The position numbers and the translations under genes are program-made. A stretch of DNA of 64,000 bases from positions 1-64,000 of the forward strand of contig NZ_FJUR01000001.1 of assembly GCF_900067135.1 (NCBI RefSeq). Direction: 5' to 3'. The DNA is from Rhizobium sp. 9140. GTDB lineage: Bacteria; Pseudomonadota; Alphaproteobacteria; Rhizobiales; Rhizobiaceae. The notes under the pieces were generated by a model that saw only the letters and a list, made by a program, of their open reading frames with translations, was not told the DNA's origin and made no database searches. This document shows, piece by piece, positions 623 through 41,514 of this stretch (positions within the stretch are counted from its first letter, which is position 1; the number at the start of each line of letters is the position of its first letter).

Positions 623-653
623 GCCCGGCATCTAAGCCAAGGCGTGCCCCGTC

Positions 654-679
654 GTCGGGACCGCGAAATCGCACACCGA
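654..679 (-). promoter_or_regulatory. Putative late-activator box upstream of prophage A protease
   Basis: A 26-bp stretch identical to 32831-32856 upstream of the prophage B protease. It contains the dyad GCGA-AA-TCGC at 663-672, centred about 45 bp upstream of the protease ATG; the prophage B copy is centred about 44 bp upstream of its gene. Variants precede the lysis operon at 40381 and 40438. The position and symmetry resemble Mor/C activator sites of Mu, but the binding protein is inferred. Confidence 0.6.
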
Positions 680-742
680 GGAACAAAGGCTGGAAATCCG
701 GACGGGAGGGCAGCGGCGCATGCCGGACACGATCTTCAGATC

Positions 743-767
743 GTTTTCAAAGCCGTTTCAAAGCCCT
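743..767 (-). repeat. Conserved TTTCAAAGCC direct repeat upstream of protease
   Basis: Two TTTCAAAGCC units lie 64 bp beyond the activator box. The 25-bp stretch matches prophage B 32921-32945 at 24 of 25 positions and has nearly the same spacing to the box (64 against 65 bp), although the sequence in between differs. Likely a second regulatory or architectural element of the head-operon promoter. The rest of 680-848 shows no gene. Confidence 0.45.
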
Positions 768-848
768 CTGGCGCGTTTGACCGACCTGTGCGCCATCACC
801 GGGCCTTCAAGCGCACCATTGGCCTCCTGAAGCCCTTTTGCAAGCAGG

Positions 849-1349: not shown

Positions 1350-1372
1350 TGCGTCGTCCCGTTGTTCTGCTC

Positions 1373-1399
1373 GACAGCCAGTGCTATATTCTGGCTGTC
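1373..1399. promoter_or_regulatory. 27-bp operator-like palindrome upstream of G
   Basis: Perfect 9-bp arms GACAGCCAG and CTGGCTGTC flank a 9-base spacer containing CTATATT. It ends 24 bp before the G start codon. The AATATAG on the leftward strand could be a -10 region inside the dyad, which would make this a repressor-controlled promoter. It could instead be a transcript hairpin. No protein is assigned to it. Confidence 0.4.
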
Positions 1400-1441
1400 G
1401 GTTGATCGAGGCGCCGGAGCCCTCCGTAGATCTTCTGACGC

Positions 1442-1467
1442 AAAGCGCGCCCCGGCAGGCGCGCTTT
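1442..1467 (-). terminator. GC-rich hairpin after F gene
   Basis: An inverted repeat built on GCGCGCC / GGCGCGC starts two bases after the F stop codon (TAG at 1470-1472). On the leftward strand only three T residues follow the stem. The longer T run lies on the rightward strand, so this is a weak or bidirectional terminator between F and G. Confidence 0.55.
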
Positions 1468-1469
1468 TT

Positions 1470-4182: not shown

Positions 4183-4183
4183 C

Positions 4184-6811: not shown

Positions 6812-6943
6812 TGTCAACGGCGGAGTAAAATCCTGCCACGCGGCGGCGCAAAAGTCGGCCACTTGTGGCGCGCGCATGAGACCGCCGGGAGGGCTTAGGC
6901 CCGAGCGGGGGTCTCATGCGCGCGTTGCGATTTTCGAAGGGCG

Positions 6944-7702
6944 TCAGCCGGCCTTTCGGGCGCGGCTTTGGGCGAGACGATAGCTGTCGCCGTTCATCTC
7001 GAGGATGCTGACGTGATGGGTGATGCGGTCGAGCAAAGCGCCGGTCAGGCGCTCGGACCCCAAGGTTTCCGTCCATTCGTCAAAAGGAAGGTTGCTGGTG
7101 ATCAGGGTCGCGCCTCGCTCGTATCGTTGCGAGATCAGCTCGAACAGCAATTCCGCGCCGGTCTTTGACAGCGGCACGAAGCCCAGTTCATCGATGATCA
7201 ACAGCTGGTAGGCGGCCATCTGCTTCTGGAACCGGATGAGACGCCGCTCGTCGCGCGCCTCCATCATCTCGCTGACCAGTGCGGCCGCTGTCGTGAACCC
7301 AACGGACAGGCCCTTCTGGCAGGCGGCCAGGCCGAGGCCGAGCGCCACATGGGTCTTGCCCGTGCCGCTGGGGCCGAGAGCGATAACGTTCTCCCTGCGC
7401 TCGATCCATTCGCAGCGCGCCAGTTCCAGCACCTGCATCCTGTTCAGCTTTGGGATGGCGGCGAAGTCGAAACTGTCGAGGCTTTTGACGACCGGGAACC
7501 TGGCCGCCTTGATGCGACGCTCGACCTTGCGACGGTCCCGTTCGATCATCTCCCGCTCGGCAAGCCGGGTGAGGTATCCGACATGATCGACGCCTTCGGT
7601 GGCGCACAGCCGGGCCAGCTTCTGGTACTCGCGCTGGAAACTCGGCAGCTTCAGGGTTTTGAGATAATGGGTGAGAAGGATCTCGGGTGCTTGGGTGTTC
7701 AT
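6944..7702 (-). CDS. istB: IS21-family helper ATPase IstB
   Basis: 252 residues from the ATG at 7702 (MNTQAPEILLTHYLKTLKLP), overlapping istA by ATGA. A DnaC/IstB-type AAA+ ATPase that directs target choice for IstA. Walker A is GPSGTGKTH at 110-118, and Walker B is LLIIDELGF; normal length for IstB. Confidence 0.93.
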   Translation of the reverse strand: MNTQAPEILLTHYLKTLKLPSFQREYQKLARLCATEGVDHVGYLTRLAEREMIERDRRKVERRIKAARFPVVKSLDSFDFAAIPKLNRMQVLELARCEWIERRENVIALGPSGTGKTHVALGLGLAACQKGLSVGFTTAAALVSEMMEARDERRLIRFQKQMAAYQLLIIDELGFVPLSKTGAELLFELISQRYERGATLITSNLPFDEWTETLGSERLTGALLDRITHHVSILEMNGDSYRLAQSRARKAG

Positions 7703-9195
7703 GCGACTTCTCCCGCATCCGACGACAGGAGACGCATATACGCCTTCGCCGATGTCGTCTCGACCGTCGCCCTCGGCAAATACGGGTAGATGGACAGGTC
7801 CAGTCTGGGCGGCCGGCGTTCCACCCGGCACAGGATCAGATGCTTGACGGCGTCAAAGCCAATGGCGCCAAGCTGGATCGCCTGCTTCACCGCCGCATGC
7901 AGATCGGCGAGTTCGAAGCTCTCCAGCAGGCGGAGGACCTGCACGTACTCACGCCGGCCGTGTTTGGCCATGCGGCCTTCCATCAACCGGCGCAGCGTAG
8001 CGAACTCTTGCGGCAAGTCCCAGCCCTGGAGGGGCGCTGCCTGATCCAGCGAATTGATCTTCTGCTCGATCAGCGGCAGGTAATGGACAGGATCGAAGAC
8101 GACGTCTTCCCGTTCCCAGCACCGAGGATGGCGGGCGATGATCTCGCCACGGCCACCAATGACCACTTCGTTGACATAGCCGCGCACCCACACATCCTGA
8201 TGGCCATAGGCGACCGGGACGGAATAGTCGTTGGTCTTGTAGCGCACCAGCGACTGCGCCGTCACCTTGGCACTTGCCTGGTCGCAGGCATCAAATGGCG
8301 AGGCTGGCAAGGCGCGCATGGCAGCCAGATCGCGCCGCAAGCGCTCGCCGATCGTCTCGCTCTCGCCGCGCAGCCTGTCGCGCTGGCGCTTCCGGCACTG
8401 CTCCTCCAGAAAGGTGTTGAACGCCTCCCATGTCGCAAACTGCGGGATCGGTACCATGAAGTTGCGCCGGGCATAGCCGACGAGACCCTCGACGTTCCCC
8501 TTGTCGTTGCCCTTGCCGGGACGGCCATAGCGATCCCGGATAAGGTAGTGGGACAGGAAGCCGCTGAACAACGTCGCGCGCTTGCGGGTGCCGTCAGGCA
8601 AAATCTTCGCCACCAGGCAACGGTCGTTGTCGTAGACGATCGATTGCGGCACGGCGCCGAAGAAAGCGAACGCATGGACATGGCCATCGACCCAGGCCTC
8701 GGCCACTGCCGCCGGATAGGCCCGCACGTAGCAGCCGTCGCTGTGCGGAAGGTCGAGCACGAAGAAATGCGCCTTCTGCTCGACACCGCCGATGACCACC
8801 ATCGCCTCACCGAAATCGGCCTGCGCATGGCCGGGCGGATGCGACAGCGGCACGAACACTTCCTGGCGGCGCTGATCCCGCTCGCGCATGTAATCCTTGA
8901 TGATCGTATAGCCGCCAGTGAACCCGCATTCGTCTCGAAGCCGGTCAAACACCCGCTTGGCCGTATGGCGCTGCTTGCGCGGCACTTGTCTGTCTTCGTC
9001 CAGCCAGTGATCGATCGTCGAGACAAACGCATCCAGCTTGGGCCGCCGGATCGGTGATTGTCGCTGATAGCCAGGTGGCGTCGAATAGGACAGCATCTTG
9101 GAAACGCTGTCGCGCGATATGTTGAAATGCTTTGCAGCCTGACGCCGGCTCATGCCTTCCGAGCAAGCCAGTCGAACCTTCAGATATAATTCCAC
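7699..9195 (-). CDS. istA: IS21-family transposase IstA
   Basis: 498 residues. The N-terminal helix-turn-helix (SRRQAAKHFNISRDSVSKML) is followed by an rve-type integrase core with DDE residues D127 (QADFGEA), D189 (VYDND) and E236 (GNDKGNVEGLVGYARRNF), then a C-terminal Mu-transposase-like domain. The frame is intact, so the element may still be active. Start within the ATTATATCTGAAG region at the right terminus. Confidence 0.93.
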   Translation of the reverse strand: MELYLKVRLACSEGMSRRQAAKHFNISRDSVSKMLSYSTPPGYQRQSPIRRPKLDAFVSTIDHWLDEDRQVPRKQRHTAKRVFDRLRDECGFTGGYTIIKDYMRERDQRRQEVFVPLSHPPGHAQADFGEAMVVIGGVEQKAHFFVLDLPHSDGCYVRAYPAAVAEAWVDGHVHAFAFFGAVPQSIVYDNDRCLVAKILPDGTRKRATLFSGFLSHYLIRDRYGRPGKGNDKGNVEGLVGYARRNFMVPIPQFATWEAFNTFLEEQCRKRQRDRLRGESETIGERLRRDLAAMRALPASPFDACDQASAKVTAQSLVRYKTNDYSVPVAYGHQDVWVRGYVNEVVIGGRGEIIARHPRCWEREDVVFDPVHYLPLIEQKINSLDQAAPLQGWDLPQEFATLRRLMEGRMAKHGRREYVQVLRLLESFELADLHAAVKQAIQLGAIGFDAVKHLILCRVERRPPRLDLSIYPYLPRATVETTSAKAYMRLLSSDAGEVA

Positions 9196-11865: not shown

Positions 11866-12183
11866 TCATCGGGACCGCCGTGGTGATTTCCACGGCAGAG
11901 CATCCAGAATTTGCTGATCGGGGCTGACTTGAGCGACGTCCGGCTCGACCGGCACAATCTCAAGCGTTCGCGGATCGACGCGAATGTCGGTGACAGAAAG
12001 CAGCCTCTCGGGAACACGAAGGCTGGGGTTGGCATAGCGGCCTGTCTCAGCGTCGTATTCAGCGCGACCGAAGGCATTGCCGTGGTCCGAGATGATGCCC
12101 GTGACCGGGTCATAGATGACGAACCACAGTTCCTGCTCCCCGCTCTGGAGCGCTTCCGGTCCAATGTTTTCAGGTGATTTCAT
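11866..12183 (-). CDS. Small protein after tail fibre, possible assembly chaperone
   Basis: 105 residues, start overlapping the fibre stop by 4 bp. Begins with a short acidic segment, then ELWFVIYDPVTGIISDHGNA, a pattern seen in N-termini of tail fibre assembly proteins (W-x-x-Y-x-x-x-T-G). The remainder describes no known catalytic motif. Likely made together with the fibre. Confidence 0.55.
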   Translation of the reverse strand: MKSPENIGPEALQSGEQELWFVIYDPVTGIISDHGNAFGRAEYDAETGRYANPSLRVPERLLSVTDIRVDPRTLEIVPVEPDVAQVSPDQQILDALPWKSPRRSR

Positions 12184-15100
12184 TTTTTCAACCTCGTAAC
12201 CGTCCAGGAGGTGCCGTCGTTCGTCATGCCGGTGCTGCTGCCGAAGTACCCCATGTCCTTGTTGTTCGTTCGCATCGCGCCGCCCGACCCCATGACGAAG
12301 ACGAGGGTGATCGTGACGCTCTGCGCGGTGCCGCCGTTGGTGAAGCTGCCGGAGATCGACTGGCTGGAGCAGCCGTAGGTGTCGATGGCCGGACCCGTGA
12401 TTTTGATGGTATCGAGCACCGTGCTGTTGATTTTCAGCTGCACGTCACCGGCGTAGAACACCTCGGCGTTGACCCCGGTCATGGAGCCGCGAAGGTTCCA
12501 GAAGGCGTTGATGACGAGCCGCTCTTCCGGTGCGAGGGTCAGAGTGCGCGTCAGCACTGTCGTCGTCGCCGACTTCGAAACGGTGCCTCCGCTCGTGTTG
12601 TAGTAGACATTCGAGATGGCGCCGTTGACCAGCTTCTCACCGTTCAAGGTGGCATCGTTGATGTCGATGTTCGAAACCTTGATGTTCAGCGCCGACAGGT
12701 TCGCGACATTGATTTTCTCGGCGGTGACGGCGTTGGCGGCAATCTTGTCTGCCGTGATCGCGTTCGCAGCGATCATGCCGGCCGTCAGAGCGCCATCGAC
12801 GATCAGATCGCCGCCGTTTCGCTCGAAGCAACCTACGGAACCGAAGTAGACGTTTCCGCCCGTTGCGTCCCGCTGCACGAACAGCTCGATGATGGCGGAA
12901 GCTGCTTCTCCCGGTGAGACAAGGTTGACGGCCAGCGTGCCAGTGCCGCCGGATCCTCGGCTGCCGGTGTTGATGTAGTCGTAGAAGCTCGCGATGTTCC
13001 CGCTAGCGTTCAGCCAGAGAACCCGGATCATTCCGTTGAAGTTGTTGTTCGAGTAAATGGCGCCGGTGAAGCGATAGGCCGTGCCGCCCTTGACCGGGAA
13101 TGACCTGCTCTGGCAGTTCGTGTAGCCGCCAGACCCCCATGGACCAGCCTGAAAACACATTCCGTTGTAGGACTGGAAAAGACCGTGATCCCCCCAGACG
13201 ATCCACCCCGGAATGGTGCCGACCCATGAGTCCGTGGACGTCATCTGGTTGTCTGGAACAAGGTTGTTGAAGTCGGTGATCACCATCTTTACAGCGGTGA
13301 TCGCCTGCGCGGCAATTTCAGTGGCGCCAATCGTTCCCGCCTGCAGCTTATTGCCAGTGATGGTCCGTGCTTGGATGTTGTCGGCCACAATGGCATTGGC
13401 CGCTATTTTCCCTGCAACAACAGCCAGTGCTCCGATTTTGTCAGCGCTAACGGCAAAGGCCTTGATTTTGTCGGCAGTGATCGCATCCGTCGCAATTTCG
13501 GTGGCGCTGATCGTGCCGACCGCGATGTGACCGGCGCCGATCGTGCGCGCATTGATCTCGTAGCCGGTGATCGTCGCAGCGATGAAGCTGTCAGCCGAGA
13601 TGGTCCGGACCGCAATCTTGTCACCGGTAATCGTGCCACCGGCGATCTTCGCCGCCGTGATGGCGTTGGCCGCCAGCTGGTTGGTCGATACGGCGCCGGC
13701 AGCGATCGTCGCTGCGGTCACGGCGTTAGCGGCGATTGTCCCGGCCGTCACGGCGTTTGCGGCGATCGTGCCTGCTGTCACCGCGTTCGCTGCGATCTTC
13801 CCGGCCGTGATCGCATTTGCCGCGATCTTGTTGGCCGTAATCGCGTTGGTAACGATGTTGCCTTCGGAGATGACTGTCGTTCCGCCCTCGCTCCAAGGCG
13901 ATGCCTCCAGCTGGTTGGCCGTCGCTTCGCCCAGATAGAATTTGGACGCCCAGGTGTAGGAGTTGTTGCCCCATGCCGCACTGTGCCCCATGCACCGCAG
14001 AAAGAGCTGGACGTGCGTGGTTCCGGCCGGAGCCTGTCCTTTCACCCAGATCCGCTCATAGCTGGCCAACTGGCTGCCCGGATCGCCATTCTGGTGCGTT
14101 GGCTTGTCCGCGAACGTATAGCCAATCGTCACGCCACCGTTGTTGACGTACTCGATGTGAAGGCGAGCATAATCAGACCGGTGCCCATAGACATAGACAG
14201 ACGCTTCCAGCCATGAGCCCTGCGCAACCGGCCAACGCATAGGGATGTTGTTGTCTGCGGGATTTCGCGGAGACAGGTCGGCAAACTGGCCGTTGTTTTG
14301 CGCGCCCTCCTGCAGAACCTGAAATGCGCCGTCGATGGGCGTGTAGTTGTCGTTGCGCTTGATGAACGACCAGTTCGCGCTGGACGCATAGATCCTCCAG
14401 TTGGTGATGTCGGCCTGGGCATTTGAGTTCGGGATCCAGTTCGTCCCTTTGCCGACTGCAAGCTTGTCGGCATAGATGGAGCCCGCAGCGATCTTGTCGG
14501 CAATGACCGCTCCAGCGGCGATCTGCCCCGCCGTGACGGCGCCGGCCGCAATGGTGCCGGTCGTAACCGCATTGGCCGCAATCGTGCCGGCCGTGATCGC
14601 GTTTGCGGCAACCGTGCCGGCCGTTACTGCATTTGCCGCGATCCTGCCCGCGACAACAGCGCCGGAGGCAATGCTGGCCGCTTCCACGGCGCCGGCGCTT
14701 ATTTTCCCGGCGGTGACTGCGTTCGCTGCAATCTCGCTTGCGGTAACGGCATTGGCTGCGATCTTCGCCGTGGTGATCGAGTCCGCCGCGAGGTGGATGG
14801 TCGAGATCGAGCCATCCACGACCAGCTCGGCACCCTCAGCCTTTCGCAGAGAGATGCGATCGATGATCAAGTAGCGCGTCGTTGACGGGCTGTGGTGGTA
14901 GATCTGCACCTTGCAATAGGTGGCAGCACCCGGAACCTGCGTCTTGCCGGAGCGCTTATCCCAAGCGGCGGGAATGGACGCGTTGCCCTGCACATCAGTG
15001 TACTGCGGCGACGAAAGCGCTGTCTTATTACGGTCGAACCACAGGATGCGATAATAGAAGCCGTAGCTCGATGAACCGTCAGTCGTACGAACAGATGCGT

Positions 15101-18100
15101 CCCACGCCAGCCAGTCACCGGACGTGACGGGGATGAAGTCCTTCGTGACCATGTTCATGGAGATGGAGCCACCGGACCCGCCGTTGACGCCGTTTTCCAG
15201 AACAAGCGACCACCGACCCGTCTGTGCATCACCGACCCAGAGCCAGATATTGGCCCCGCCCGCACCGGCCCCGTTGTAGATGGGATAGTTGGCGTCCCAG
15301 ACGGATGTGAGCGCGCCTTGTTCGAACTGACCGTCGGGAATGAAGTTTTCGAAGTCGGCCAAGAGAAGCTGCTTCGCCGTGATCGCGTTCGCCGCGATGT
15401 TGTTGGCGATGATCGCGTCAGCCGCGATCTTGCCTGCCACGATGGCACTGGCTGCAATCTCGTTGGCCGTGACAGCTCCAGTTGCGATCTTGGCGGTTGT
15501 GACGGAGTTGGCAGCCAGCTCCGTTGCCGAGATCACGCCAGCGGCGATCTTCCCGGCAATAACCGAGTTCACAGCCAGCTTGTCGGCGGTAACAGCCAAG
15601 GCATCGAGCTTTGCGGTGGTGATGGCACCCGACGCAATCGTACCGGCGGTGACGGCGCCAGCAGCGAGCTTGGCCGTCTCGATCGCACCGGCCGCGATCT
15701 TCGCAGCCGTGATGGCATTCGCCGCGATCTCATTGGCCGTGACAGCATTGGCGGCGATCTTGCCGGCTACGATGGCACCGGCAGCGATCTTGTTCGCGGT
15801 GATCGCATTGGTGACGATGTTGCCCTCGGTAATGAGGGTGATCGAACCTTCGCTCCACGGAGTAGGCTCGGACTGGTACTGCGTTGCTTCCCCTACATAG
15901 AAGCGAGAGAACCATGTGTAGGAGTCGGTGCCATTTGCGGCACTGTGACCAAAGCAGCGCAGAAAGATTTCGACATGCGTTGTGCCTGCCGGCGCCTGAC
16001 CCTTTGCCCAAACCCGCTGATAGGCTGAAAGCTGGCTTCCAGGGTCCGAGTTCTGGTTTGTCGGCTTGGCGTCCATGATGAAGCCGAGCGAGTTACCGCC
16101 GTTATTGAAGCATTCGATATAGAGCTGAACGCCGTTCGAACGGTGCCCGAAAACATAGACGGACGCTTCCAGCCACGACAGCTGCGCAACAGGCCAGCGC
16201 ATAGCGTAGTTGTTGTCGAACGGGCTTCGAGGGTTAACGTCTACGAAGGCTCCATCGAGCCGTGCGCCGCTCTGAAGAACGTAGAAGCAGCCATCGATGG
16301 GTGAGTAGTTGTTGTTCGCCTTTCCAAAGTCCCAAGTCCCCCCCGACCGGAACTTGATGCCCCAGTTTGTCAGGTCGGCCTGAGCGTTCGAGTTCGAGAC
16401 CCAGTTGACGCCCTTGCCGACGGCCAACTTCTCTGCGGTGATGATCCCTGCAGCGAGGTTCGCGGCAGAGACTGCACTCGCTGCAATGGTGCCAGCCGTG
16501 ATGGCATTCGCAGCCACGGTACCGGCCGTGACGGCGCCGGCCGCGATCGTGCCGGCCGTCACGGCGTTGGTCGCGATCTTGCCAGCGATAACAGCGTTCG
16601 CCCCGATCGTGCCGGCCGTCACCGCGCCGGCGGCAAGCTTGGCCGTCTCGATGGCGCCGGCGGCGATCTTGACAGCGGTGATCGCATTCGCAGCGATCGC
16701 GTCGGCCGTCACAGCGTTTGCGGCAATGGCGTTGGCCGTGATCGCAGCAGCCGAAACATGTCGCGCGATGATCGCGCCATCGACGATCAGGGATGCTTCC
16801 GCCATCTCGACAAGCTGGATGTCAGAGATCAGCCAATAGCCTGCGGCGTCCGTGCCGGTGTCCATGTAGGGAACAGGCGTTGCCGTCTGCGTCCTGGAGC
16901 TGTCCGTCTTGAACCGCCATTCGATCGTCTTACCGGCAGCTGCCTGGTACCCGGTGTCCGTCGCCGAAGCGATCACGCTCCCGTCCGACGCCGAAATCGA
17001 CATGTCGTTGATGACGAGGGCATTGAAGTTCTTGTTGCAGCCCACGTTCTTCACGATGGCCGACGCGCGGTACCAAGTGTCCGGCGTCAGGGGAAAGCCG
17101 CGGGCGATCCAGCCGTGGATGCGCGGGCCGGCACTCGCCGCAGCCAGCGCCGCGTTGAACTTCATGGCGCCAGAGACGCGCATCGCCGCAACCTGGGCAT
17201 CCGCGCTGGAGACGAACGTCACGTAAGGAGCATTCGGCGACCAATAGCCCGGATCTCCGTAGAACCGGTCAAGAATGAGGCTCGCGCCTACAGCGTTCGC
17301 GGCGATCGACATCTTGGATGCCGTGATCGCGTTGACGGCAATCTTGTCCGCGACGATGGCGCTGGCCTGAAGCTTCGGCGTCGAGATCGCGTCGTCGGCG
17401 ATCTTCGTGTTCGTCACCGCGTTCGAGGCGAGCTTTGCCGCATCGACCGCGAGCGCCGCAAGCTTGGCGTTTGTGATGGCGAGATCGGCGATCTGCGTTC
17501 CGACAAGCTGGCCGGAAACCTTGGCAGCGGCAACGGCGGCGATCTGCGCATCCGTCAGCTGGCCCGTGACCTTGCCCGCCGCGATCGCTGCGATTTGTGT
17601 GTCGGCGATCGTGCCGCTGATGTCCGGAGCTGCAACGCCCGAAATCCACGTCACTCCATCGAACCGATAGATCTTGCTGTCGGTGCTCAGAAACACGATA
17701 CGGCCGGCAGCGTTGCCTGACGTCGGGAGCGAGCCAACCGTTTCAACGGGCTTCAAGCCATTGCCGAACTTCGCAGCCGTGATGGCGGCATCGGCTATCT
17801 GGCTGGAGACCAGCGTGCCTGTGACCTTGGCAGCGCCGACGGCTGCAATCTGCGTATCGGTCAACTGGCCGGTGACCTTGGACGCGGAGAGTGCGGCCAG
17901 CTGGGCGTCCAGCAATGTGCCGGTGATGTCGCCCGCTGCAGTCGTGGCGACAAACCTCGTGCCGTCATACCGGTAGAGCTTGTCGTCCGTGGTCAGAAAG
18001 ACGATCCGACCTTCGGTGTTGCCGGACGTCGGGAGCGAGGTCACAACCTCGATCGGCCGGAGCCCGCTTGCGAACTTCGTGACGGTGACGGCCGAGTCCG

Positions 18101-20957
18101 CGATCTTTGCCGCGATGACGGACCCATCGGCCAGCTTGCCCGCATCGACAGCCAGTGCAGCGAGCTTGCCATTCGTAATCGCGAGATCAGCGATCTGAGA
18201 GCCAACCAGCTGGCCGGCGACTTTGGCGGCAGCGACGGCCGCAATCTGCGCATCCGTCAGCTGACCGGTGATTTTCGACGCTGCCAAGCTTGCGATGTTC
18301 GCCTCAGCGATCGCGCCATCGATGTCGGCGCCGGCGACCGTCGAGATCCACCTCGTTCCATCGAACCGATAGACCTTAAAGTCTGTGGTCAGGTACGCCA
18401 TGCGGCCGGCGGTGTTGCCGGTTGTCGGCAGCGCGGAGACGACTTCCACCGGGCGCAAGCCGGTAGCGAACTTTGCCGCCGTCACGGCTGCATCGGCAAG
18501 CTTGCCGGCTGTGATGGCGGCGTCGCTGATTTGCGTGCCGACGATCGTGCCCGTTAGGTCCACCGTCGGCACAGATGCCGTGTAGGCGGAGCCGTTCCAG
18601 CGGTAGAGCTTGCCGTTGACGGTGATCACGTCCTGCGTCTTCGTGGTCGGGACGACAGTGCCAGAGATGACACCGACCGGCGCGATCCCGGAGGCAAACT
18701 TCGTTGCATCGACGGCCTGCGCCGCCAGCTTGTCGCGCTCGATCGCCGCGTCGGCGATCTTCGCGGCGATGACCGCACCGTCCATGATCTTGCTGACAGA
18801 GACCGCAGCGTCAGCCAGCTTGGCCGTGATCACAGCGCGATCGGCCAGGATCTGTGCCGTGACGGCCGCTACCTCAAGCTTCGCAGTCGAGACGGCAGCA
18901 TCTGCGAGCTTCAGACCAGTGACAGCCGCGTCCATGATCTTGTTGGCCGAAACCGCAGCGTTGCCGATCTTGCTGGTGACGATGGCGCCGTCGAGGACGT
19001 CGGCCGACGAGAACCCGATATTCGCCGTCGTCAGCGAGATCCAGGCCGAGTCCTCCGTCTTGCGCGGCGAGTAAGGGACGAGCTTTCCCTGCACCTCGTA
19101 CTCGGTCGCCGGCAAGAGCCACATGCCGCTCAAGGGCCATTCGCTCGATGTCGGGCCGTAGGGGAAGTGGTCGCTCTCGAAGACGACGACACCCGTCGCC
19201 TTCAGCCGAACGCGGACCAGGACGCGCGCAACATCGGCGAGGTTGGTGGCGCAGGACACGATGATGACCGGCCGGCGGCTCCGGCCGTCCGGGTCCGTCA
19301 GAACATCGGCGCGGGCACCCCAGCCGGTCATCGGCTGCGTCGGCACCTCGATGCGGCCGATCCAGCCGCTGGATACGACCTCCTGCATGGTGCGCACCCA
19401 ATCGTAATCAGCCGGGTCGATCTCTTGCAAGGTGACGATCTGGTTCATGCCCATCTGGCCACGGCGCTCCGTGACGAGGAAGCGCTTGTTCACATAGCCA
19501 TTGTGCGGCGACGTCCAGGAGACGACATCGATGCCGGCTTCCAGAACATAGGCCATCGGCGGCAGGGGCAGCTGGTGACGACGGAAGCGGCGCGCCTCGG
19601 TAAGGATCGCGCGCATGAGCTGCTGGACCTGCCGATCGTGTGACGTGGCACCGAAGGAGATGTCGGCGAGATTGCGCTTGCCGTCCAGGGCTTCGAACGC
19701 ATCGCTGCGCACGACCGGCGCATCCTTGGCGACCCACGCCTCTTCCGGGTTCGGATACTTGCCCGTCACGCCGTTGATGGTGAGATCGACAGAGGGGAAC
19801 GGATCGAAGCCGGCCGGGTCTGTGATGAGGGTATCGGCGTCGGAGAAGCCGAAGACGGCCCCGCCGAAGATACCGTTCTTCATCTTGAAGACGCCGCACT
19901 GGTCGGTCAGTCGGCCATTCTGAGCCTTGCGAAGCTCCTCGACGACGGTGAGCGGCACCATGTCGCCAGTGATCTCGTAGCCGCCGCGCCACTGCGGTTC
20001 CGTCGATCCGTCCGCCCGCTCGACCAGTCGGCCGGCCTCCTGACATGCCGCAATCCAGTTTGAGGATGGCAGCCGCAGCGCGTTGACCTTCTGCCCGCCG
20101 TAGAACCATTCGCCCTTGTAGCGCAGGCCCCGTAGGACATTGTAGGTCATGACCGCGAGGTTATAGGACGGCTCATAGGTGCTCGGATCATCCCATCGAT
20201 GGGTGCCGTTACCGCCGTTCGTGCTGTCCTTTCGGATGTCGTAAAGCGGCAGAGGCGCCGGTTCGAACAGCACCTTCGGCTGACCCTTGAAGTAATCGCG
20301 CTCCCAGCGATAGGTCATGATGGCATAGGGAATGCCGCGACCGATCATGGTCGCATCCCACGGCCGATCGTCGTCTTCACCGAATGTCTCGACCAGGAAG
20401 GGGTCAGCGACGGTCTGCAAGCCGTCGTAGAACTTCACCCAGCAGTAGTCGTGAACGGTCCCTTCGGTGTCGCGGAACTCTTTCAGCGGATAGCCGCGCC
20501 CGAAAACAGCGTCGGGCTCATTCCAGAGGATCGTGCATTTCTCGCCCTCGATCCAGATGCCATCGAGACCGGGAAGCGGGAGGTTGCCCAGCTCAATGAC
20601 TTCCGTGAAATATGTGTTCGGCGTGTCGCCGTCGTAGTTACCCCATGTGCCGTAATATTTGCGCTTCCCGCGCGTGGCGAACTGGCCGATCGTCGTCGAG
20701 ACCGGCTTGTCATCGCCAACATCCGCCTGGATTTTGGCGCCCACTGGTGGTGGCGCGTCCGGCGCGGTGGCCATTGAATAGAGCGTCGTTGCTGCAGCCA
20801 GCGCCAGACTGACCACGGCATTGACGATACCGGAGCCACTGATAACGGCACTGAAGACGCCGGCAATGGCACCGATCAGCGGGCCGGCGGCGGCGGGGTC
20901 GGGCTGAAGCAGGAAGAACGTCAGCGCGGTTGTGGCAAGAGCGTATTTCTTGAACAT
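12180..20957 (-). CDS. Giant tail-tip/fibre protein (GTA megatron/gpJ-like) with decapeptide repeats
   Basis: 2925 residues. The first ~640 form a gpJ-like central tail-tip domain (hydrophobic N-terminus, then TTIGQFATRGKRKYYGTWGN, GGYEITGDMVPLTVVEELRK). From about residue 650 to 2750 the chain is dominated by ten-residue repeats of the type A-V/I-T-A-x-x-I-A-A-N/G, likely a long fibrous shaft. Inserted are KLYRYDGT-type mini-domains, globular jelly-roll-like modules, and two paralogous ~205-residue modules (near 1510-1715 and 2165-2370). The C-terminus (ERLVINAFWNLRGSMTG ... GTSWTVTRLKK) looks like a receptor-binding knob. The gene follows a DUF6950 peptidase, as in GTA clusters. Confidence 0.9.
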   Translation of the reverse strand: MFKKYALATTALTFFLLQPDPAAAGPLIGAIAGVFSAVISGSGIVNAVVSLALAAATTLYSMATAPDAPPPVGAKIQADVGDDKPVSTTIGQFATRGKRKYYGTWGNYDGDTPNTYFTEVIELGNLPLPGLDGIWIEGEKCTILWNEPDAVFGRGYPLKEFRDTEGTVHDYCWVKFYDGLQTVADPFLVETFGEDDDRPWDATMIGRGIPYAIMTYRWERDYFKGQPKVLFEPAPLPLYDIRKDSTNGGNGTHRWDDPSTYEPSYNLAVMTYNVLRGLRYKGEWFYGGQKVNALRLPSSNWIAACQEAGRLVERADGSTEPQWRGGYEITGDMVPLTVVEELRKAQNGRLTDQCGVFKMKNGIFGGAVFGFSDADTLITDPAGFDPFPSVDLTINGVTGKYPNPEEAWVAKDAPVVRSDAFEALDGKRNLADISFGATSHDRQVQQLMRAILTEARRFRRHQLPLPPMAYVLEAGIDVVSWTSPHNGYVNKRFLVTERRGQMGMNQIVTLQEIDPADYDWVRTMQEVVSSGWIGRIEVPTQPMTGWGARADVLTDPDGRSRRPVIIVSCATNLADVARVLVRVRLKATGVVVFESDHFPYGPTSSEWPLSGMWLLPATEYEVQGKLVPYSPRKTEDSAWISLTTANIGFSSADVLDGAIVTSKIGNAAVSANKIMDAAVTGLKLADAAVSTAKLEVAAVTAQILADRAVITAKLADAAVSVSKIMDGAVIAAKIADAAIERDKLAAQAVDATKFASGIAPVGVISGTVVPTTKTQDVITVNGKLYRWNGSAYTASVPTVDLTGTIVGTQISDAAITAGKLADAAVTAAKFATGLRPVEVVSALPTTGNTAGRMAYLTTDFKVYRFDGTRWISTVAGADIDGAIAEANIASLAASKITGQLTDAQIAAVAAAKVAGQLVGSQIADLAITNGKLAALAVDAGKLADGSVIAAKIADSAVTVTKFASGLRPIEVVTSLPTSGNTEGRIVFLTTDDKLYRYDGTRFVATTAAGDITGTLLDAQLAALSASKVTGQLTDTQIAAVGAAKVTGTLVSSQIADAAITAAKFGNGLKPVETVGSLPTSGNAAGRIVFLSTDSKIYRFDGVTWISGVAAPDISGTIADTQIAAIAAGKVTGQLTDAQIAAVAAAKVSGQLVGTQIADLAITNAKLAALAVDAAKLASNAVTNTKIADDAISTPKLQASAIVADKIAVNAITASKMSIAANAVGASLILDRFYGDPGYWSPNAPYVTFVSSADAQVAAMRVSGAMKFNAALAAASAGPRIHGWIARGFPLTPDTWYRASAIVKNVGCNKNFNALVINDMSISASDGSVIASATDTGYQAAAGKTIEWRFKTDSSRTQTATPVPYMDTGTDAAGYWLISDIQLVEMAEASLIVDGAIIARHVSAAAITANAIAANAVTADAIAANAITAVKIAAGAIETAKLAAGAVTAGTIGANAVIAGKIATNAVTAGTIAAGAVTAGTVAANAITAGTIAASAVSAANLAAGIITAEKLAVGKGVNWVSNSNAQADLTNWGIKFRSGGTWDFGKANNNYSPIDGCFYVLQSGARLDGAFVDVNPRSPFDNNYAMRWPVAQLSWLEASVYVFGHRSNGVQLYIECFNNGGNSLGFIMDAKPTNQNSDPGSQLSAYQRVWAKGQAPAGTTHVEIFLRCFGHSAANGTDSYTWFSRFYVGEATQYQSEPTPWSEGSITLITEGNIVTNAITANKIAAGAIVAGKIAANAVTANEIAANAITAAKIAAGAIETAKLAAGAVTAGTIASGAITTAKLDALAVTADKLAVNSVIAGKIAAGVISATELAANSVTTAKIATGAVTANEIAASAIVAGKIAADAIIANNIAANAITAKQLLLADFENFIPDGQFEQGALTSVWDANYPIYNGAGAGGANIWLWVGDAQTGRWSLVLENGVNGGSGGSISMNMVTKDFIPVTSGDWLAWDASVRTTDGSSSYGFYYRILWFDRNKTALSSPQYTDVQGNASIPAAWDKRSGKTQVPGAATYCKVQIYHHSPSTTRYLIIDRISLRKAEGAELVVDGSISTIHLAADSITTAKIAANAVTASEIAANAVTAGKISAGAVEAASIASGAVVAGRIAANAVTAGTVAANAITAGTIAANAVTTGTIAAGAVTAGQIAAGAVIADKIAAGSIYADKLAVGKGTNWIPNSNAQADITNWRIYASSANWSFIKRNDNYTPIDGAFQVLQEGAQNNGQFADLSPRNPADNNIPMRWPVAQGSWLEASVYVYGHRSDYARLHIEYVNNGGVTIGYTFADKPTHQNGDPGSQLASYERIWVKGQAPAGTTHVQLFLRCMGHSAAWGNNSYTWASKFYLGEATANQLEASPWSEGGTTVISEGNIVTNAITANKIAANAITAGKIAANAVTAGTIAANAVTAGTIAANAVTAATIAAGAVSTNQLAANAITAAKIAGGTITGDKIAVRTISADSFIAATITGYEINARTIGAGHIAVGTISATEIATDAITADKIKAFAVSADKIGALAVVAGKIAANAIVADNIQARTITGNKLQAGTIGATEIAAQAITAVKMVITDFNNLVPDNQMTSTDSWVGTIPGWIVWGDHGLFQSYNGMCFQAGPWGSGGYTNCQSRSFPVKGGTAYRFTGAIYSNNNFNGMIRVLWLNASGNIASFYDYINTGSRGSGGTGTLAVNLVSPGEAASAIIELFVQRDATGGNVYFGSVGCFERNGGDLIVDGALTAGMIAANAITADKIAANAVTAEKINVANLSALNIKVSNIDINDATLNGEKLVNGAISNVYYNTSGGTVSKSATTTVLTRTLTLAPEERLVINAFWNLRGSMTGVNAEVFYAGDVQLKINSTVLDTIKITGPAIDTYGCSSQSISGSFTNGGTAQSVTITLVFVMGSGGAMRTNNKDMGYFGSSTGMTNDGTSWTVTRLKK
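13850..14460 (-). repeat. Fibre module copy 2 (paralogue of 15810-16430)
   Basis: Encodes a ~205-residue module starting GKGTNWIPNSNAQADITNW and ending PWSEGGTTVISEGNIVTNAI. The copy at 15810-16430 starts GKGVNWVSNSNAQADLTNW and shares the core PMRWPVAQ/AMRWPVAQ, SWLEASVYV, GQAPAGTTHV and the same ending. It looks like a duplicated carbohydrate-binding-type jelly roll; the ligand is unknown. Confidence 0.75.
15810..16430 (-). repeat. Fibre module copy 1 (paralogue of 13850-14460)
   Basis: First of the two related modules, with the same flanking decapeptide blocks on both sides. The pair differs mainly in surface loops, e.g. DGCFYVLQSGARLDGAFVDV against DGAFQVLQEGAQNNGQFADL, consistent with a duplication followed by divergence of binding surfaces. 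Confidence 0.75.
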
Positions 20958-31229: not shown

Positions 31230-31640
31230 TTAAGCGAACGTGACCCAGACGCCCTGGTCGTCCACGTCGTGAATTTTCCCAACAACCGAGCGCGTGTTGG
31301 TAGCGCTGGTTTTCGCGACGGTCTGGTCATCGACGCCGTAGGCATCGGAACCGATATCGGCGCGGGTGATGAGGTCGGCCGAGGCCGAGTTCTCGTAGCG
31401 GAAGGTGCCGAGCGAGGTTTCGGCGACCTGGGCGCCGTTGGCGCCGAGCAGGTTGTCCACGGTCCGCTCGTTACGGGCGACGGCCTTGAGCGTCGCCACG
31501 GCCGTGACCGGGACAAGGAAGCCGGCGGCGTTGATGCCGACCATTGCGCCGGCGTAGAGCTTGACGGCGCCGCCAACGGGGACATGGCGCTTGTGACGCT
31601 CGCGGCGCGGCGTCGTGCGATCGGCGGAAAGAGCCGTCAT
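31230..31640 (-). CDS. Head decoration-like protein
   Basis: 136 residues, overlapping the protease by 4 bp and 10 bp before the capsid gene. Small beta-rich protein (VPVGGAVKLYAGAMVGINAA, YGVDDQTVAKTSATNTRSVV) resembling DUF2190/head decoration proteins. The spacing indicates expression with the capsid operon. Confidence 0.65.
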   Translation of the reverse strand: MTALSADRTTPRRERHKRHVPVGGAVKLYAGAMVGINAAGFLVPVTAVATLKAVARNERTVDNLLGANGAQVAETSLGTFRYENSASADLITRADIGSDAYGVDDQTVAKTSATNTRSVVGKIHDVDDQGVWVTFA

Positions 31641-32800
31641 CGGCCGGCCTCCATGGCTGTCTTGGACTTGAGCATGTCCTCGGCGCTGATGTTCATCTGG
31701 CGCATGACGGCGAGATCCGCGTCATCAAGGCCTGCGGCTGCCGAAGAGCCGCCAGACGGCGGCAGAGCGGTGGAGCGCTGGGCTGACGTGAGCACCGGCG
31801 CCTTGCCGAGGAAGTCGTTGAACATGGCGAGGTTGGCCTTGTGCAGCGAGATCGCCCAGTCTTTCTGGGCCGGCGTGATCTTGCCGGCGCGCATGGCGGC
31901 CGCGACCGCGGTCTCGGCGTCGTTCTCGACCTTGTGCGAGACGAGACTGTCCACCTTGTCGCGCATCTCCTGGAAGGCGGCGATCGGCACGAACTTGGTC
32001 GGATCGGCCGCACCGGCGGAATGCGCTGCCGCAAAGGCGCCGACGATCGCATCGACCGGAGCGTTCTCGGGCTGACCGGCGGCGATCGCAATCTTCTTGC
32101 GATCGGCGAAGGCGGATTGCACGGCGGTCATGACCTGTTCGGACTTTGCGTCCTTCGTCAGGCCGGCAGCCGTGGCGATCGCCGTCGAGCTGGTGAGCAG
32201 CGAGTTGACGGCGGTCAGCACGTCATCCTCGCTGGTGCCATCGGCCAAGCCGAGGGCAGCGAGCACTCTTTTCATGGGAACCTCTGTTTTGGGGGGCTGA
32301 AGGTTGAAAACCGAGTGAGCGGAGACCTCGATCATGTCGAGGTTCGGCACGTTGGTGAGCGCGACCGTCTGTAGCGCCAGGACGTCTCCATCCTTGGTGT
32401 GGAAGTAGACCGGCGAGAGGTAGCGATATTCGCGGCCCTTGATCGCGGACGCCGCGTTCGCCGTCCATTCGACACGACCGTAGAGGCCGTCGTCGCGTGC
32501 CTGGACTTCCTTGATCCATCCCGCCGCCGGCGCGGGCTGACCGTTCGTCAGAGCGTGAATGCTCTGATGCTCGTAATCGACGAGGATATCGGTGTTTCCG
32601 GCGTAGCGCCGGGTCATCTCGGCGATCTGCTCGAGCTTGGCCTTGTCGCCGGCATCATAGGGACCGCGACCGTCACGGCCCGAGAACTTGCCAGCCGGGA
32701 TGAGGAGCACCCACGGGTGATCGGCAGCCGTAGCCGGAAGATCGGCGGTATGTGCGGTAACAAGGGATGCTGCGAGAAGAGCGGCGATGGCGGTTTTCAT
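31637..32800 (-). CDS. Mu I-like prohead protease/scaffold protein (prophage B)
   Basis: 387 residues, first gene of the capsid operon. Contains PWVLLIPAGKFSGRDGRGPY, ILVDYEHQSIHALTNGQPAPA (His of the protease family) and YRYLSPVYFHTKDG, all typical of Mu gpI. A scaffolding-type helical part (VAAAMRAGKITPAQKDWAIS) follows. As a putative start is only about 8 bases after a -10-like CATAAT, the mRNA could be nearly leaderless. The prophage A counterpart is of a different sequence type. Confidence 0.88.
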   Translation of the reverse strand: MKTAIAALLAASLVTAHTADLPATAADHPWVLLIPAGKFSGRDGRGPYDAGDKAKLEQIAEMTRRYAGNTDILVDYEHQSIHALTNGQPAPAAGWIKEVQARDDGLYGRVEWTANAASAIKGREYRYLSPVYFHTKDGDVLALQTVALTNVPNLDMIEVSAHSVFNLQPPKTEVPMKRVLAALGLADGTSEDDVLTAVNSLLTSSTAIATAAGLTKDAKSEQVMTAVQSAFADRKKIAIAAGQPENAPVDAIVGAFAAAHSAGAADPTKFVPIAAFQEMRDKVDSLVSHKVENDAETAVAAAMRAGKITPAQKDWAISLHKANLAMFNDFLGKAPVLTSAQRSTALPPSGGSSAAAGLDDADLAVMRQMNISAEDMLKSKTAMEAGR

Positions 32801-32814
32801 AGTCGCATCTAGCG

Positions 32815-32856
32815 ATTATGTTCCCGAGCTGTCGGGACCGCGAAATCGCACACCGA
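32815..32856 (-). promoter_or_regulatory. Putative late-activator box and -10 element for capsid operon
   Basis: The 26 bp at 32831-32856 are identical to prophage A 654-679, with the dyad GCGAAATCGC at 32840-32849. A leftward -10-like CATAAT (32815-32820) begins 11 bp after the box, leaving the box over the -35 region as expected for an activator-dependent promoter. The region also has the small inverted repeat CCCGAGCTGTCGGG at 32823-32836. Confidence 0.6.
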
Positions 32857-32920
32857 AGGACCGATCCCGGTCTATGCGCTTGTCAGAGACATATCACGGG
32901 GACGATATGGGACAAGGACC

Positions 32921-32945
32921 GTTTTCAAAGCCCTTTCAAAGCCCT
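32921..32945 (-). repeat. Conserved TTTCAAAGCC direct repeat upstream of capsid operon
   Basis: Matches prophage A 743-767 at 24 of 25 positions and lies 65 bp beyond the box (64 in A). The 342-base gap 32801-33142 otherwise holds no coding frame; it includes two hairpins at 33091-33104 (CTGTC-TTCT-GACAG) and 33114-33136 (GTGAGG/CCTCAC), which likely end the F transcript, and an AATATAG motif near 33045. Confidence 0.45.
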
Positions 32946-39027: not shown

Positions 39028-39512
39028 GGCACCTGCGCCTCATGTGGGAAATTGATATTGGCAGCGTCGATCGACAGGCCATCCCGCTCCGTTTCAACCT
39101 GCAGGAGTTTGGCCTGCAACACGGTGAGTTCAGTCGAAAGCGTGGTCAGATCGTTGTCGATGCGGTCGATCCTCGCCACCTGCTCCGCATTCTTCGATCC
39201 CGGCAACGCGGACAGATTGAGAACGTGCGGCTCCAGCAGCTCGCGGATGTCATCATGCGAGGTCTTGCCGAAGCGCTTCAGCGCGTCCGGCACCGATCGC
39301 AGCACATAATCCACAGCGTCATCGAGCGTTCCGCCCGGCTGAAGGAGAAGGCGAGCGCCGTTGGCCAGTGCGGACTGGAGTGCGTCCCGATGCTTGGCCT
39401 CGATATTGATGCCAAACCAGCGCTTCGCCATCAGCGAAGTCATGGCCAGAAGGCCAAGGATAAGAAAGTCGAACACCTGCGGAAGCAGCTGCGACATGAT
39501 CAGTTCTTTCAT
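39024..39512 (-). CDS. Putative holin, single-membrane-segment type
   Basis: 162 residues. One N-terminal membrane segment (VFDFLILGLLAMTSLMAKRW, about residues 13-32), then a soluble part with ALQSALANGARLLL and a coiled-coil C-terminus. Resembles LLH-type phage holins; it lies directly downstream of the endolysin with a 4-bp overlap. Confidence 0.65.
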   Translation of the reverse strand: MKELIMSQLLPQVFDFLILGLLAMTSLMAKRWFGINIEAKHRDALQSALANGARLLLQPGGTLDDAVDYVLRSVPDALKRFGKTSHDDIRELLEPHVLNLSALPGSKNAEQVARIDRIDNDLTTLSTELTVLQAKLLQVETERDGLSIDAANINFPHEAQVP

Positions 39513-40366
39513 GCGGCGATATCCTCGTTGGTAAGAAAGGGCTGGATCATCGCGGCCGTCTTCTCACCGACGATGCCGTCAACGAGGAGGCCGCGAGAGC
39601 GCTGAAGGAGTTTGACGGCCGCTTCTGTGCCGGGACCGAAGTCGCCATCGATCGACAGCAGGTAGAAGCCGGCAGCCGCAAGGCCGCGCTGCAACTGCTC
39701 GACAGCCGGACCCTCGGATCCGCGCCGCAGGATCTTCACCGCTGGGACGTTCTGGTTGGCTGCGATCAGCTTGACCTGCAGCGCGGTGACAACGGACTTT
39801 GCCTTGCCGAGCTTCAGGCGGCGATCGCCGAGGCCATTGCGACCTCCGTTCACGACCTTCGTCACCGCGATCAGGTCATCGCGATCGGCGATGGCATTGA
39901 GCTTCTTGGTTGACCAGAAGAAGAACACGGCCCACGCCGCCCAAGGGAACTCGGCGACCAGCTCGGGCTGCGCCTCGAAATCCGGGCACTTGGGCTTGAT
40001 GTCGCGCATCCAGATGGTGAAGCGGCGATAGTTGTCGCGGCCGGTGAGCTGCAACGGGCAACGACCCTTGTAGCGCTTGCCGTCGCCAGCCTTGACGTTG
40101 CCGAGATCCTTGCGGCTCTCGTAAGCCGCGCCGGATGCATACTCCTCGAGCGTGCAGAACCCGTCACATTCATGCGCGACCTGGGCGAGCAGGTGCGCGA
40201 TGCGCAGGGCCGAGGTCACCTCGAACGCGATCAGCATTTCAGGGAGGATCGCGGCGAAGCCGGCGATGATGGCCTTCTGCTTCTGGCCGATCAGACCCGT
40301 CGAACGCGGCACGATGGCGTAAAGCGACGAGGCGTCAACCGAGGAAGCGAGAGTTGGGAGATGCAT
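39509..40366 (-). CDS. Endolysin: GH19-like lysozyme with peptidoglycan-binding domain
   Basis: 285 residues. GH19-type chitinase/lysozyme domain in the first ~200 residues: probable catalytic glutamates in AQVAHECDGFCTLEEYASGA (E66 and E74/75), then YKGRCPLQLTGRDNYRRF and NGGRNGLGDR. Residues ~212-280 form a PG_binding_1 domain (GSEGPAVEQLQRGLAAAGFY, GDFGPGTEAAVKLLQ). No signal peptide: a holin-released lysin. First gene after the two activator-box variants. Confidence 0.9.
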   Translation of the reverse strand: MHLPTLASSVDASSLYAIVPRSTGLIGQKQKAIIAGFAAILPEMLIAFEVTSALRIAHLLAQVAHECDGFCTLEEYASGAAYESRKDLGNVKAGDGKRYKGRCPLQLTGRDNYRRFTIWMRDIKPKCPDFEAQPELVAEFPWAAWAVFFFWSTKKLNAIADRDDLIAVTKVVNGGRNGLGDRRLKLGKAKSVVTALQVKLIAANQNVPAVKILRRGSEGPAVEQLQRGLAAAGFYLLSIDGDFGPGTEAAVKLLQRSRGLLVDGIVGEKTAAMIQPFLTNEDIAA

Positions 40367-40380
40367 GAAAAGACGTTCCT

Positions 40381-40406
40381 GTCGCGGGTGCGAAATCGTG
40401 CACCGA
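40381..40406 (-). promoter_or_regulatory. Activator-box variant proximal to lysis operon
   Basis: Shares GCGAAATCG (40390-40398) and CACCGA with the capsid-operon boxes; on the leftward strand the dyad is GGTGC ... GCACC. It begins 15 bp before the endolysin ATG, so it overlaps the mRNA start or leader. Together with the next box it could give cooperative control. Confidence 0.5.
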
Positions 40407-40437
40407 TGGAACTGTCTTGAAACATCGAGGAGATAGG

Positions 40438-40463
40438 GTCGCGGATGCGAAATCGCAGGCAGG
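40438..40463 (-). promoter_or_regulatory. Activator-box variant distal to lysis operon
   Basis: GTCGCGGATGCGAAATCGC matches 18 of 19 bases of the box at 40381 and contains the full dyad GCGAAATCGC (40447-40456), 57 bp from the first one. A leftward TATCTC lies downstream as possible -10. It ends 15 bp after the Mor-like gene stop. Confidence 0.5.
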
Positions 40464-40477
40464 CGGTATCCGCGGAA

Positions 40478-40876
40478 CTAAAGGAGCTTTAACTGCGGGT
40501 CAGCTTGCGGCCGTTTGCGACGGTGCTCGGCGACGGTGTTCTGCGAAACGCCCAGGGCACGGACGATCTCGTTGGTTGAATAGCCCTTCTCGATAAGATC
40601 GGCAATGGCGGCGGCGCGCCGGCGCTTGTCGCCGGCAATTGCCTGAGGGATCTCAATCCTCATGGAGCCATAGGCTGCAGCGATCTTCTCGGCCGCTTCC
40701 AGACCGACAACCTGGACAAGCCAATGATCGGCGGTCACGTGCTCGGGAACGTAGACACGCTCCCCCGGCCGGGCACGCCCAAGCGCAATAGCCGCTTCCT
40801 CACCCGCAACATTAGCGATGCGGTTTAGAAGCGGCGTGAGCCAGACACGATCAGAGGGATGCCCGCTAGACGTCAT
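40478..40876 (-). CDS. Mor-like late transcription activator
   Basis: 132 residues from the ATG at 40876 overlapping gemA stop (ATGA). Size and layout resemble Mu Mor (129 residues): an N-terminal dimerization part (GRARPGERVYVPEHVTADHW) and a C-terminal helix-turn-helix (IADLIEKGYSTNEIVRALGVSQNTVAEHRR). It is the last early/middle gene before the lysis operon with its two boxes, and the best candidate to bind the GCGAAATCGC element. Could alternatively be a generic HTH protein. Confidence 0.65.
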   Translation of the reverse strand: MTSSGHPSDRVWLTPLLNRIANVAGEEAAIALGRARPGERVYVPEHVTADHWLVQVVGLEAAEKIAAAYGSMRIEIPQAIAGDKRRRAAAIADLIEKGYSTNEIVRALGVSQNTVAEHRRKRPQADPQLKLL

Positions 40877-41514
40877 CGCACCTTCTTTTCTCGGATGCGC
40901 CGGCCGAAGGCGTTCATCACCGTGATCCATTCGTCCGCGGTCAGCGCTCGGCCGGAAACCTGCTGGCCGAGAATGCCCTTCACGGCATCCCAGAAGGCAC
41001 GCGGGATCTTCGCTTCCACGGCGCCAACCAGAATAACCCACTGCGCCTGGGCAATGCGGTACCCGTCGGCACGCTGCCACGGTTGAAGGCGGGAGTGGAC
41101 GCTCCAATCCACCCCGGCCTCGCGGTTCAGCCACTTTTTCAGAGCCTCGATCACCTTGCGTGCGTCCTCAGCGTCCTGAAGCCAGCGCACGTGATCGATC
41201 CCGGTCTGCACCTTGACGAAAGCGATCAACGCCGCGTCGTCACGGTCGCGAACCACGCCGAGGTTGAAGCCGGCGATCCAGAGGGCCTGAAGCTTTCCGG
41301 CATACTTGCCAGACAACTTCTGCCGACCGTTCTGGCGGCGCTCGATCGGCTTGAACCCGAGCCGGCGAAACTCCGTAATGACGGCTTGACGCTCCTCCTC
41401 AGTCATATCCTTGGCCGACGATTTGCCCGTAATGAGCTGGAGTTTGGCTCGGTAGACATCATCGTCGAGACCAAGCTGCTTCTGCGCAACTTTAATGGCG
41501 GTGATCGAACCCAT
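40873..41514 (-). CDS. gemA: GemA-family regulatory protein (DUF1018)
   Basis: 213 residues. ITAIKVAQKQLGLDDDVYRA at the N-terminus and LQALWIAGFNLGVVRDRDDA are GemA/DUF1018 features; Mu GemA modulates host gene expression and DNA topology. Its C-terminus includes IPRAFWDAVKGILGQQVSGR. It sits just before the Mor-like gene, as in Mu. Confidence 0.85.
   Translation of the reverse strand: MGSITAIKVAQKQLGLDDDVYRAKLQLITGKSSAKDMTEEERQAVITEFRRLGFKPIERRQNGRQKLSGKYAGKLQALWIAGFNLGVVRDRDDAALIAFVKVQTGIDHVRWLQDAEDARKVIEALKKWLNREAGVDWSVHSRLQPWQRADGYRIAQAQWVILVGAVEAKIPRAFWDAVKGILGQQVSGRALTADEWITVMNAFGRRIREKKVR

Follow-up and report, generated by a model that had tools for sequence, protein, structure and literature searches.

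A dyad repeated in Mu-like prophages of Rhizobium sp. 9140 as the predicted late-promoter operator of a Mor-type activator

Introduction

What is the role of a 26-bp element that recurs, letter for letter, ahead of the head genes of Mu-like prophages in Rhizobium sp. 9140? By the window we mean the whole 64,000-nucleotide stretch of DNA that was analysed (contig NZ_FJUR01000001.1, positions 1 to 64,000), and an earlier note on it had proposed that the element is a late promoter box of the kind used by the Mu activators Mor and C. According to the excerpts of PMC4390567 and PMC4287176, the dyad of the Mu promoter Pm spans -51 to -36 with its axis at -43.5, and Mor, as described in the excerpt of PMC4287176, activates Pm and not the late promoters. 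Judging by titles and abstracts, we found no description of Mor boxes or of leaderless head mRNA in these phages in the open-licence literature.

Results

The identical 26-mer is present at both of the places where it had been reported, on the minus strand (TCGGTGTGCGATTTCGCGGTCCCGAC; Table 1), and its dyad reads on that strand as GTGTGCGAT and TTCGCGGTC on either side of the axis. All of the sites are on the minus strand and lie between genes, the latter as the earlier note had said, and its figure of about 45 bp from the centre of the head box to the protease ATG holds closely, with 44 bp in prophage B and 45 bp in prophage A. A degenerate pattern built from the 26-mer, which gave no match with three or fewer mismatches in 100 shuffles, also finds 40381-40406; it misses the copy at 40438-40463, yet that copy contains the dyad TGCGATTTCGCA. 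The core GCGAAATCG alone is weakly unusual (6 matches versus 2.34 expected, with 2 of 100 shuffles reaching 6), and we dropped it as evidence. Two variants had been placed before the endolysin, and only one of them stands as a conserved site, the one just after mor. We reject 40381-40406 as its equal, because L015 and L019/L048 have no such copy following mor, while in prophage C, L016 and L017 its counterpart keeps the arms GGTGC...GCACC and has lost the CGATTTCG core; it is more likely a leader stem-loop or a decayed site than a promoter box.

Table 1. Positions in the window of the boxes, the proposed promoter elements and the genes next to them
Feature	Position	Strand	Remarks
Head box, prophage A	654..679	-	axis between 668 and 667; inside the copy of the contig's far end
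Head box, prophage B	32831..32856	-	axis between 32845 and 32844
Lysis box, prophage B	40443..40460	-	just after mor; GCCTGCGAT and TTCGCATCC on either side of the axis, which lies at +26 from the stop
Second lysis-side variant	40381..40406	-	pattern match; 29 bp before the endolysin ATG
Proposed -10, head promoter of A	630..635	-	TTAGAT, +32..+37 from axis
Proposed -10, head promoter of B	32807..32812	-	CTAGAT, +32..+37 from axis
Proposed -10, lysis promoter	40414..40419	-	CAAGAC; C and L050 have these letters too, at the identical offset
Second dyad, around the head -10	32803..32815	-	TCGC-TAGAT-GCGA; sequence varies by lineage
Upstream block, prophage B	32917..32944	-	two 11-bp phased repeats (GGGCTTTGAAAGGGCTTTGAAAACGGTC, GGCTTTGAAA); conserved sequence
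Upstream block, prophage A	739..766	-	same block with two 11-bp phased repeats; conserved sequence
Mor-like activator, 132 aa	40478..40876	-	follows GemA; PHROG 836 (late transcriptional activator)
Endolysin	39509..40366	-	first gene after mor
Head maturation protease, Mu I-like	31637..32800	-	PF10123; ATG at +44 from axis; mRNA predicted to be leaderless

The string GGTGNGCGATTTCGC has four exact matches across the organism's own genome. Since positions 1-5756 of the window duplicate the far end of the same contig (C1:3663383-3669122, 0 mismatches and 16 gap positions), the site at 654 and the exact match at 3664042 are one and the same place, and the four matches therefore amount to three head sites, in prophages A, B and a third prophage, C, whose site is at 3619045. 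The claim that the element precedes the head operons of both prophages is thus right for A and B, but the genome has three such sites. The gaps in the 1-5756 copy disturb reading frames of prophage A. Around the head site A shares 97.9% identity with C across 6.8 kb, and their similarity ends near window position 6815, where a transposase comes next, so that A appears, from its sequence, to lack a lysis and mor region of its own; mor-like matches at E up to 0.001 in the genome fall in B and C only, and the Mor proteins of these two are 93% identical. The transposase region (6944-9195) adjoins the end of the A/C similarity; it is IS21-like in our own reading, the search having assigned only a transposase family to 7699-9195. 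Prophage B also carries an open frame of 2925 aa (12180-20957, minus strand) with many repeats of 30-nt period.

The Mor-like protein named earlier as the nearest upstream regulator does match the late transcriptional activators of PHROG 836 (E 4.7e-21), and the gene order of prophage B, from GemA (40873-41514) through the Mor-like gene to the endolysin, fits an arrangement of gemA, mor and middle/late genes. Against Pfam Mor (PF08765) the protein scores 22.7 bits, just below the cut-off of 24.9, while 12 of the 14 members of the Mor-family profile A2 match PF08765 at E up to 0.01 (best 1.2e-8), and the profile itself finds Mu Mor (1rr7) at E 2.7e-4, as its second-best match behind a designed repeat protein. 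Residues 84-121 form a C-terminal helix-turn-helix (HTH_23, 27.7 bits; cut-off 24.6). A structure model made from 5 input sequences has a middling mean pLDDT of 64.9, and 1rr7 is not among the fold matches listed for it. No second mor-like gene was found beside mor, nor a C gene in prophages B and C, and the endolysin follows mor directly, so one activator seems to serve both the lysis and the head genes. In three other loci, L123, L128 and L132 (genomes G622, G742 and G668), two mor-like genes lie about 0.8-1.1 kb apart and are perhaps a Mor plus C pair.

Relatives were compared next. A family search of 394 genomes gave mor-like matches in 39; the comparison used 40 regions from these, none longer than 20 kb, together with four IMG/VR contigs (L015-L018). 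In each phage we looked for the dyad best shared by two stretches, one following mor and one preceding the head protease, and ranked this pair against windows of the same size from that phage. The set of 46 was reduced to 33 loci (28 from family genomes, 3 IMG/VR contigs and 2 own prophages) by dropping those with no mor match (L080, L085) or no protease in the analysed stretch (L018, L055, L057, L059, L063, L075, L084), and by excluding those with the protease right after mor (L060, L069) or an odd context (L062, L082). When dyads were weighted, the true pair ranked first in 27 of the 33 loci, where 0.64 would be expected from the 39 to 63 windows each; the others were prophage C, L017, L083 (rank 2), L049, L064 and L067. 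Because the protease was located with an HMM from 14 proteases, all from loci already showing a box, protease finding in this first set is not fully independent. Loci of other families were tested afterwards. Of 397 genomes searched across the order, 52 had a match; 40 places were chosen from these, mostly by rank, and 10 of them had no protease downstream; of the 30 kept, 18 had the pair at rank 1 (0.59 expected; 31 to 53 windows), the remainder being L129, L131, L136, L140, L145 (tie), L149 (tie), L150, L154, L155, L156, L158 and L160. Ranking by identity alone is weaker, with strict first rank in 7/33 and 12/30 (0.64 and 0.59 expected).

The box sequence differs between lineages, yet it matches within one phage. 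True lysis/head pairs share on average 15.3 of 18 positions versus 7.5 when permuted, a figure that is inflated because the pairs were selected for similarity, and a simple one-mismatch count, which depends on register, sorts the head half-sites of 40 lineages into 13 clusters. In the 30 aligned loci the axis of the lineage-specific lysis dyad is between 3 and 74 bp downstream of the mor stop codon (B taken as +26). The boxes also vary along with the recognition helix of the Mor protein: HERTAWR goes with TGTCAG, HERTAWY with GTTCAG, SQNTV with TCGC and (A/S)(R/K)STV mostly with TCGG. A partial Mantel test of box against recognition helix gave 0.23, a value reached in 0 of 500 permutations, but box distance has a higher partial correlation (0.32) with the remainder of the Mor protein, so the covariation does not single out the helix.

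Promoter geometry was read from 47 loci, chosen for having a box pair: 29 of the 30 aligned loci (without L017, which is nearly identical to C), 17 of the 18 other-family loci at rank 1 (without L159) and L145 (a tie), with the axes of B set by hand between GCGAT and TTCGC. At less than 70% head-region identity 40 lineages remain. Across these, similarity to TATAAT is highest at +32 from the axis at both kinds of promoter. The peak is 2.5 of 6 at head sites (mean 1.21, sd 0.38) and 2.5 at lysis sites (mean 1.30, sd 0.32), and the A/T fraction at +33 is 0.92 at both. A -10 at +32..+37 would put the transcription start near +44 and hence the dyad axis near -44.5. The CATAAT that had been proposed as the -10 of prophage B is probably not the main one, since it occurs at +24..+29 only in B among the 30 aligned loci (CATAGT in L016), and the position conserved across lineages holds TTAGAT in prophages A and C and CTAGAT in prophage B.

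In 39 of the 40 lineages the head ATG lies at +43 (3), +44 (19) or +45 (17) from the axis, and a Shine-Dalgarno core of at least 4 nt is found in 8 of 39. If transcription starts where the -10 suggests, the head protease mRNA is predicted to be leaderless, beginning at or next to the ATG. The protease ATG of prophage A is at 622-620 (+45), with a further ATG at +36, and alternative in-frame ATGs occur at some other head promoters, for example at +36 in C and at +33 in L078 and L152.

Head promoters carry two further features. In 25 of 40 lineages a second dyad with arms of at least 4 brackets the -10, whereas 500 shuffles gave a mean of 7.8 and at most 16, and its sequence varies by lineage; no clear other copy of it was seen in nine phages, eight of which were covered over the analysed stretch only, and it is possibly a second operator. 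Mostly 80-130 bp upstream of the box, many lineages have a block that is conserved where the Mor boxes differ, and a model of it trained on 23 lineages put the block at rank 1 in 7 of the 17 lineages kept for testing, where 0.14 would be expected. This block occupies the same interval as the annotated gyrase cut site of Mu, and the best matches in the genomes of POA1180 and D3112 fall in that interval; the Mu and RcapMu genomes show no match. In Ab30 the match in the interval, at 19637, is the second best of the plus strand and is not the insertion-free segment 18,736-18,772 given in the excerpt of PMC5977238. The block is thus at most a possible strong gyrase site, with POA1180 and D3112 speaking for it and Mu, RcapMu and Ab30 against.

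Whether such a box precedes late operons only was checked for one box class in IMG/VR. The GGCTGACANNTGTCAGCC class has 87 sites in 83 stretches, and 69 of the 87 lie at three late promoters (25 after mor, 25 before the head protease and 19 before the tail sheath gene), 11 at stretch edges and 7 unassigned; the tail sheath HMM was built from five of the sites counted with it, two of whose proteins match PHROG 23. A stricter first pass gave 25 after mor, 22 before head genes and 40 other. In sheath-bearing relatives (L169, L215, L239 and others) the tail sheath gene is preceded by the third box at a distance of 68-103 bp, mostly 70-86. Two of the 7 unassigned sites (L182, L233) precede proteins that we read as lysis-type. 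The window's own class, TCGGTGTGCGATTTCGCG, is found in 6 IMG/VR stretches.

As in Mu Pm, mor comes after gemA, the dyad comes right after mor (when we mapped it onto the Mu sequence, it began 3 nt after the mor stop there), its arms measure about 5 bp within a span of 16 bp, and a -10 is present; the axis of Pm agrees within about 1 bp with the -44.5 that we infer here. Unlike at Pm, the box is found again at the head promoter and, in some relatives, ahead of the tail sheath gene, and, unlike in Mu, the endolysin follows mor directly and no C accompanies it in B and C. That one activator and one dyad class would serve several late promoters, including those of lysis and I (the protease), is in turn like Mu C with Plys, PI, PP and Pmom. 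C is encoded by its own gene after the middle operon, whereas here the protein in the mor position appears to take that role, box sequences differ among lineages and a leaderless head mRNA is predicted. Among other named phages, the Rhodobacter phage RcapMu likewise carries one 18-bp dyad, repeated exactly, both downstream of its late activator gene and ahead of its head protease (pair rank 1 of 108), but AAGGA precedes the protease ATG, which is 61 bp from the axis, and a T run follows the dyad; its head mRNA is not predicted to be leaderless. POA1180 has a version of the box with a one-base centre (rank 4 of 115), and in D3112 the stretches following mor and preceding the protease share a non-dyad repeat at 17/18 positions (rank 4 of 105). 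No convincing box pair was seen in StM171 and QH16, which were inspected without rank computation, and B3 lies outside the pair test because mor sits at its end.

Discussion

The 26-bp element is very probably the operator of the phage's own Mor-type activator, used at late promoters. The Mor/C-type late box of the earlier note is in this sense the best-supported reading, given the placement after mor and before the protease, the matching within each phage and the spacing like that of Mu Pm. The positions, the spacing, the matching within phages, the variation between lineages and the offsets of the -10 and the ATG are computed; Mor as the binder, activation through binding and the point at which transcription starts are what these observations suggest. 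In this model, a Mor dimer made from the gene after gemA would bind the dyad centred near -44.5, where the -35 would be contacted, and would recruit the host RNA polymerase to the -10 about 32 bp past the axis. The box just after mor would then switch on the lysis and packaging genes, the box before the protease the head genes, and the third box of some relatives the tail sheath operon, such that a single activator could cover lysis and head promoters, unlike in Mu, and head transcription would start at or next to the protease ATG to give a leaderless mRNA.

An alternative, which we judge to be very unlikely, is that the early and the lysis/packaging operons end at these dyads, which would then act as intrinsic terminators or RNA stem-loops. 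Some copies do look the part, being GC-rich inverted repeats followed by T runs, such as the RcapMu repeat CCCCCGGACCTGTGTCCGGGGGTTTT at both of its places and several of the IMG/VR copies before the tail sheath, and the Mu Pm region likewise has a GC-rich repeat and then a T run in its sequence. However, TTTT within +7..+26 is found at 5/40 head and 5/40 lysis sites, the window's own head box is without a T run, and a terminator needs no fixed spacing, yet the lineage-specific dyad keeps one to the -10 and, at head promoters, to the ATG. The scarcity of T runs and this fixed spacing lead us to reject terminators as a general explanation, and it is possible that in some phages the sequence has a dual role as terminator and box. 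We hold it for most unlikely, too, that the boxes are operators of another phage regulator, be it an immunity repressor, a Ner-like or a ParB-like protein, that represses or activates late promoters. RcapMu and POA1180 encode further DNA-binding proteins (ParB-like, repressor), and the boxes covary with the N-terminal part of Mor at least as strongly as with the helix, but the position after mor and a -10 spacing within about 1 bp of the Mu Mor site (the start being inferred) point to Mor, as do the 69 of 87 scanned sites at late promoters, the genome loci having covered the late side only. The idea that the 26-mer is a recently shared promoter segment of related prophages, a product of mosaicism with no regulatory meaning, may draw on the closeness of A to C and of the Mor proteins of B and C, but is barely credible, since the flanks of A and B have diverged around the 26-mer and other families show the same arrangement with unrelated box sequences.

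With the Mor operator as the preferred reading, the system is a variant of the Mu scheme and not a separate kind. We lean, with moderate confidence, towards a wider picture for the Mu-like prophages of the order, in which one Mor-type activator would run a single-tier late programme, Mor and its boxes would have diversified jointly, giving roughly a dozen classes of half-site, and head mRNAs would be leaderless, with a -10 bracketed by a lineage-variable dyad that is maybe a separate operator.

What was a bare Mor-like annotation becomes a predicted regulon with exact sites, and the comparison suggests that the two-step Mor/C cascade of Mu can be collapsed to one step. The matched helices and boxes are a natural library for reading the Mor/C recognition code, and the constant distance from axis to ATG makes the leaderless head mRNA directly testable.
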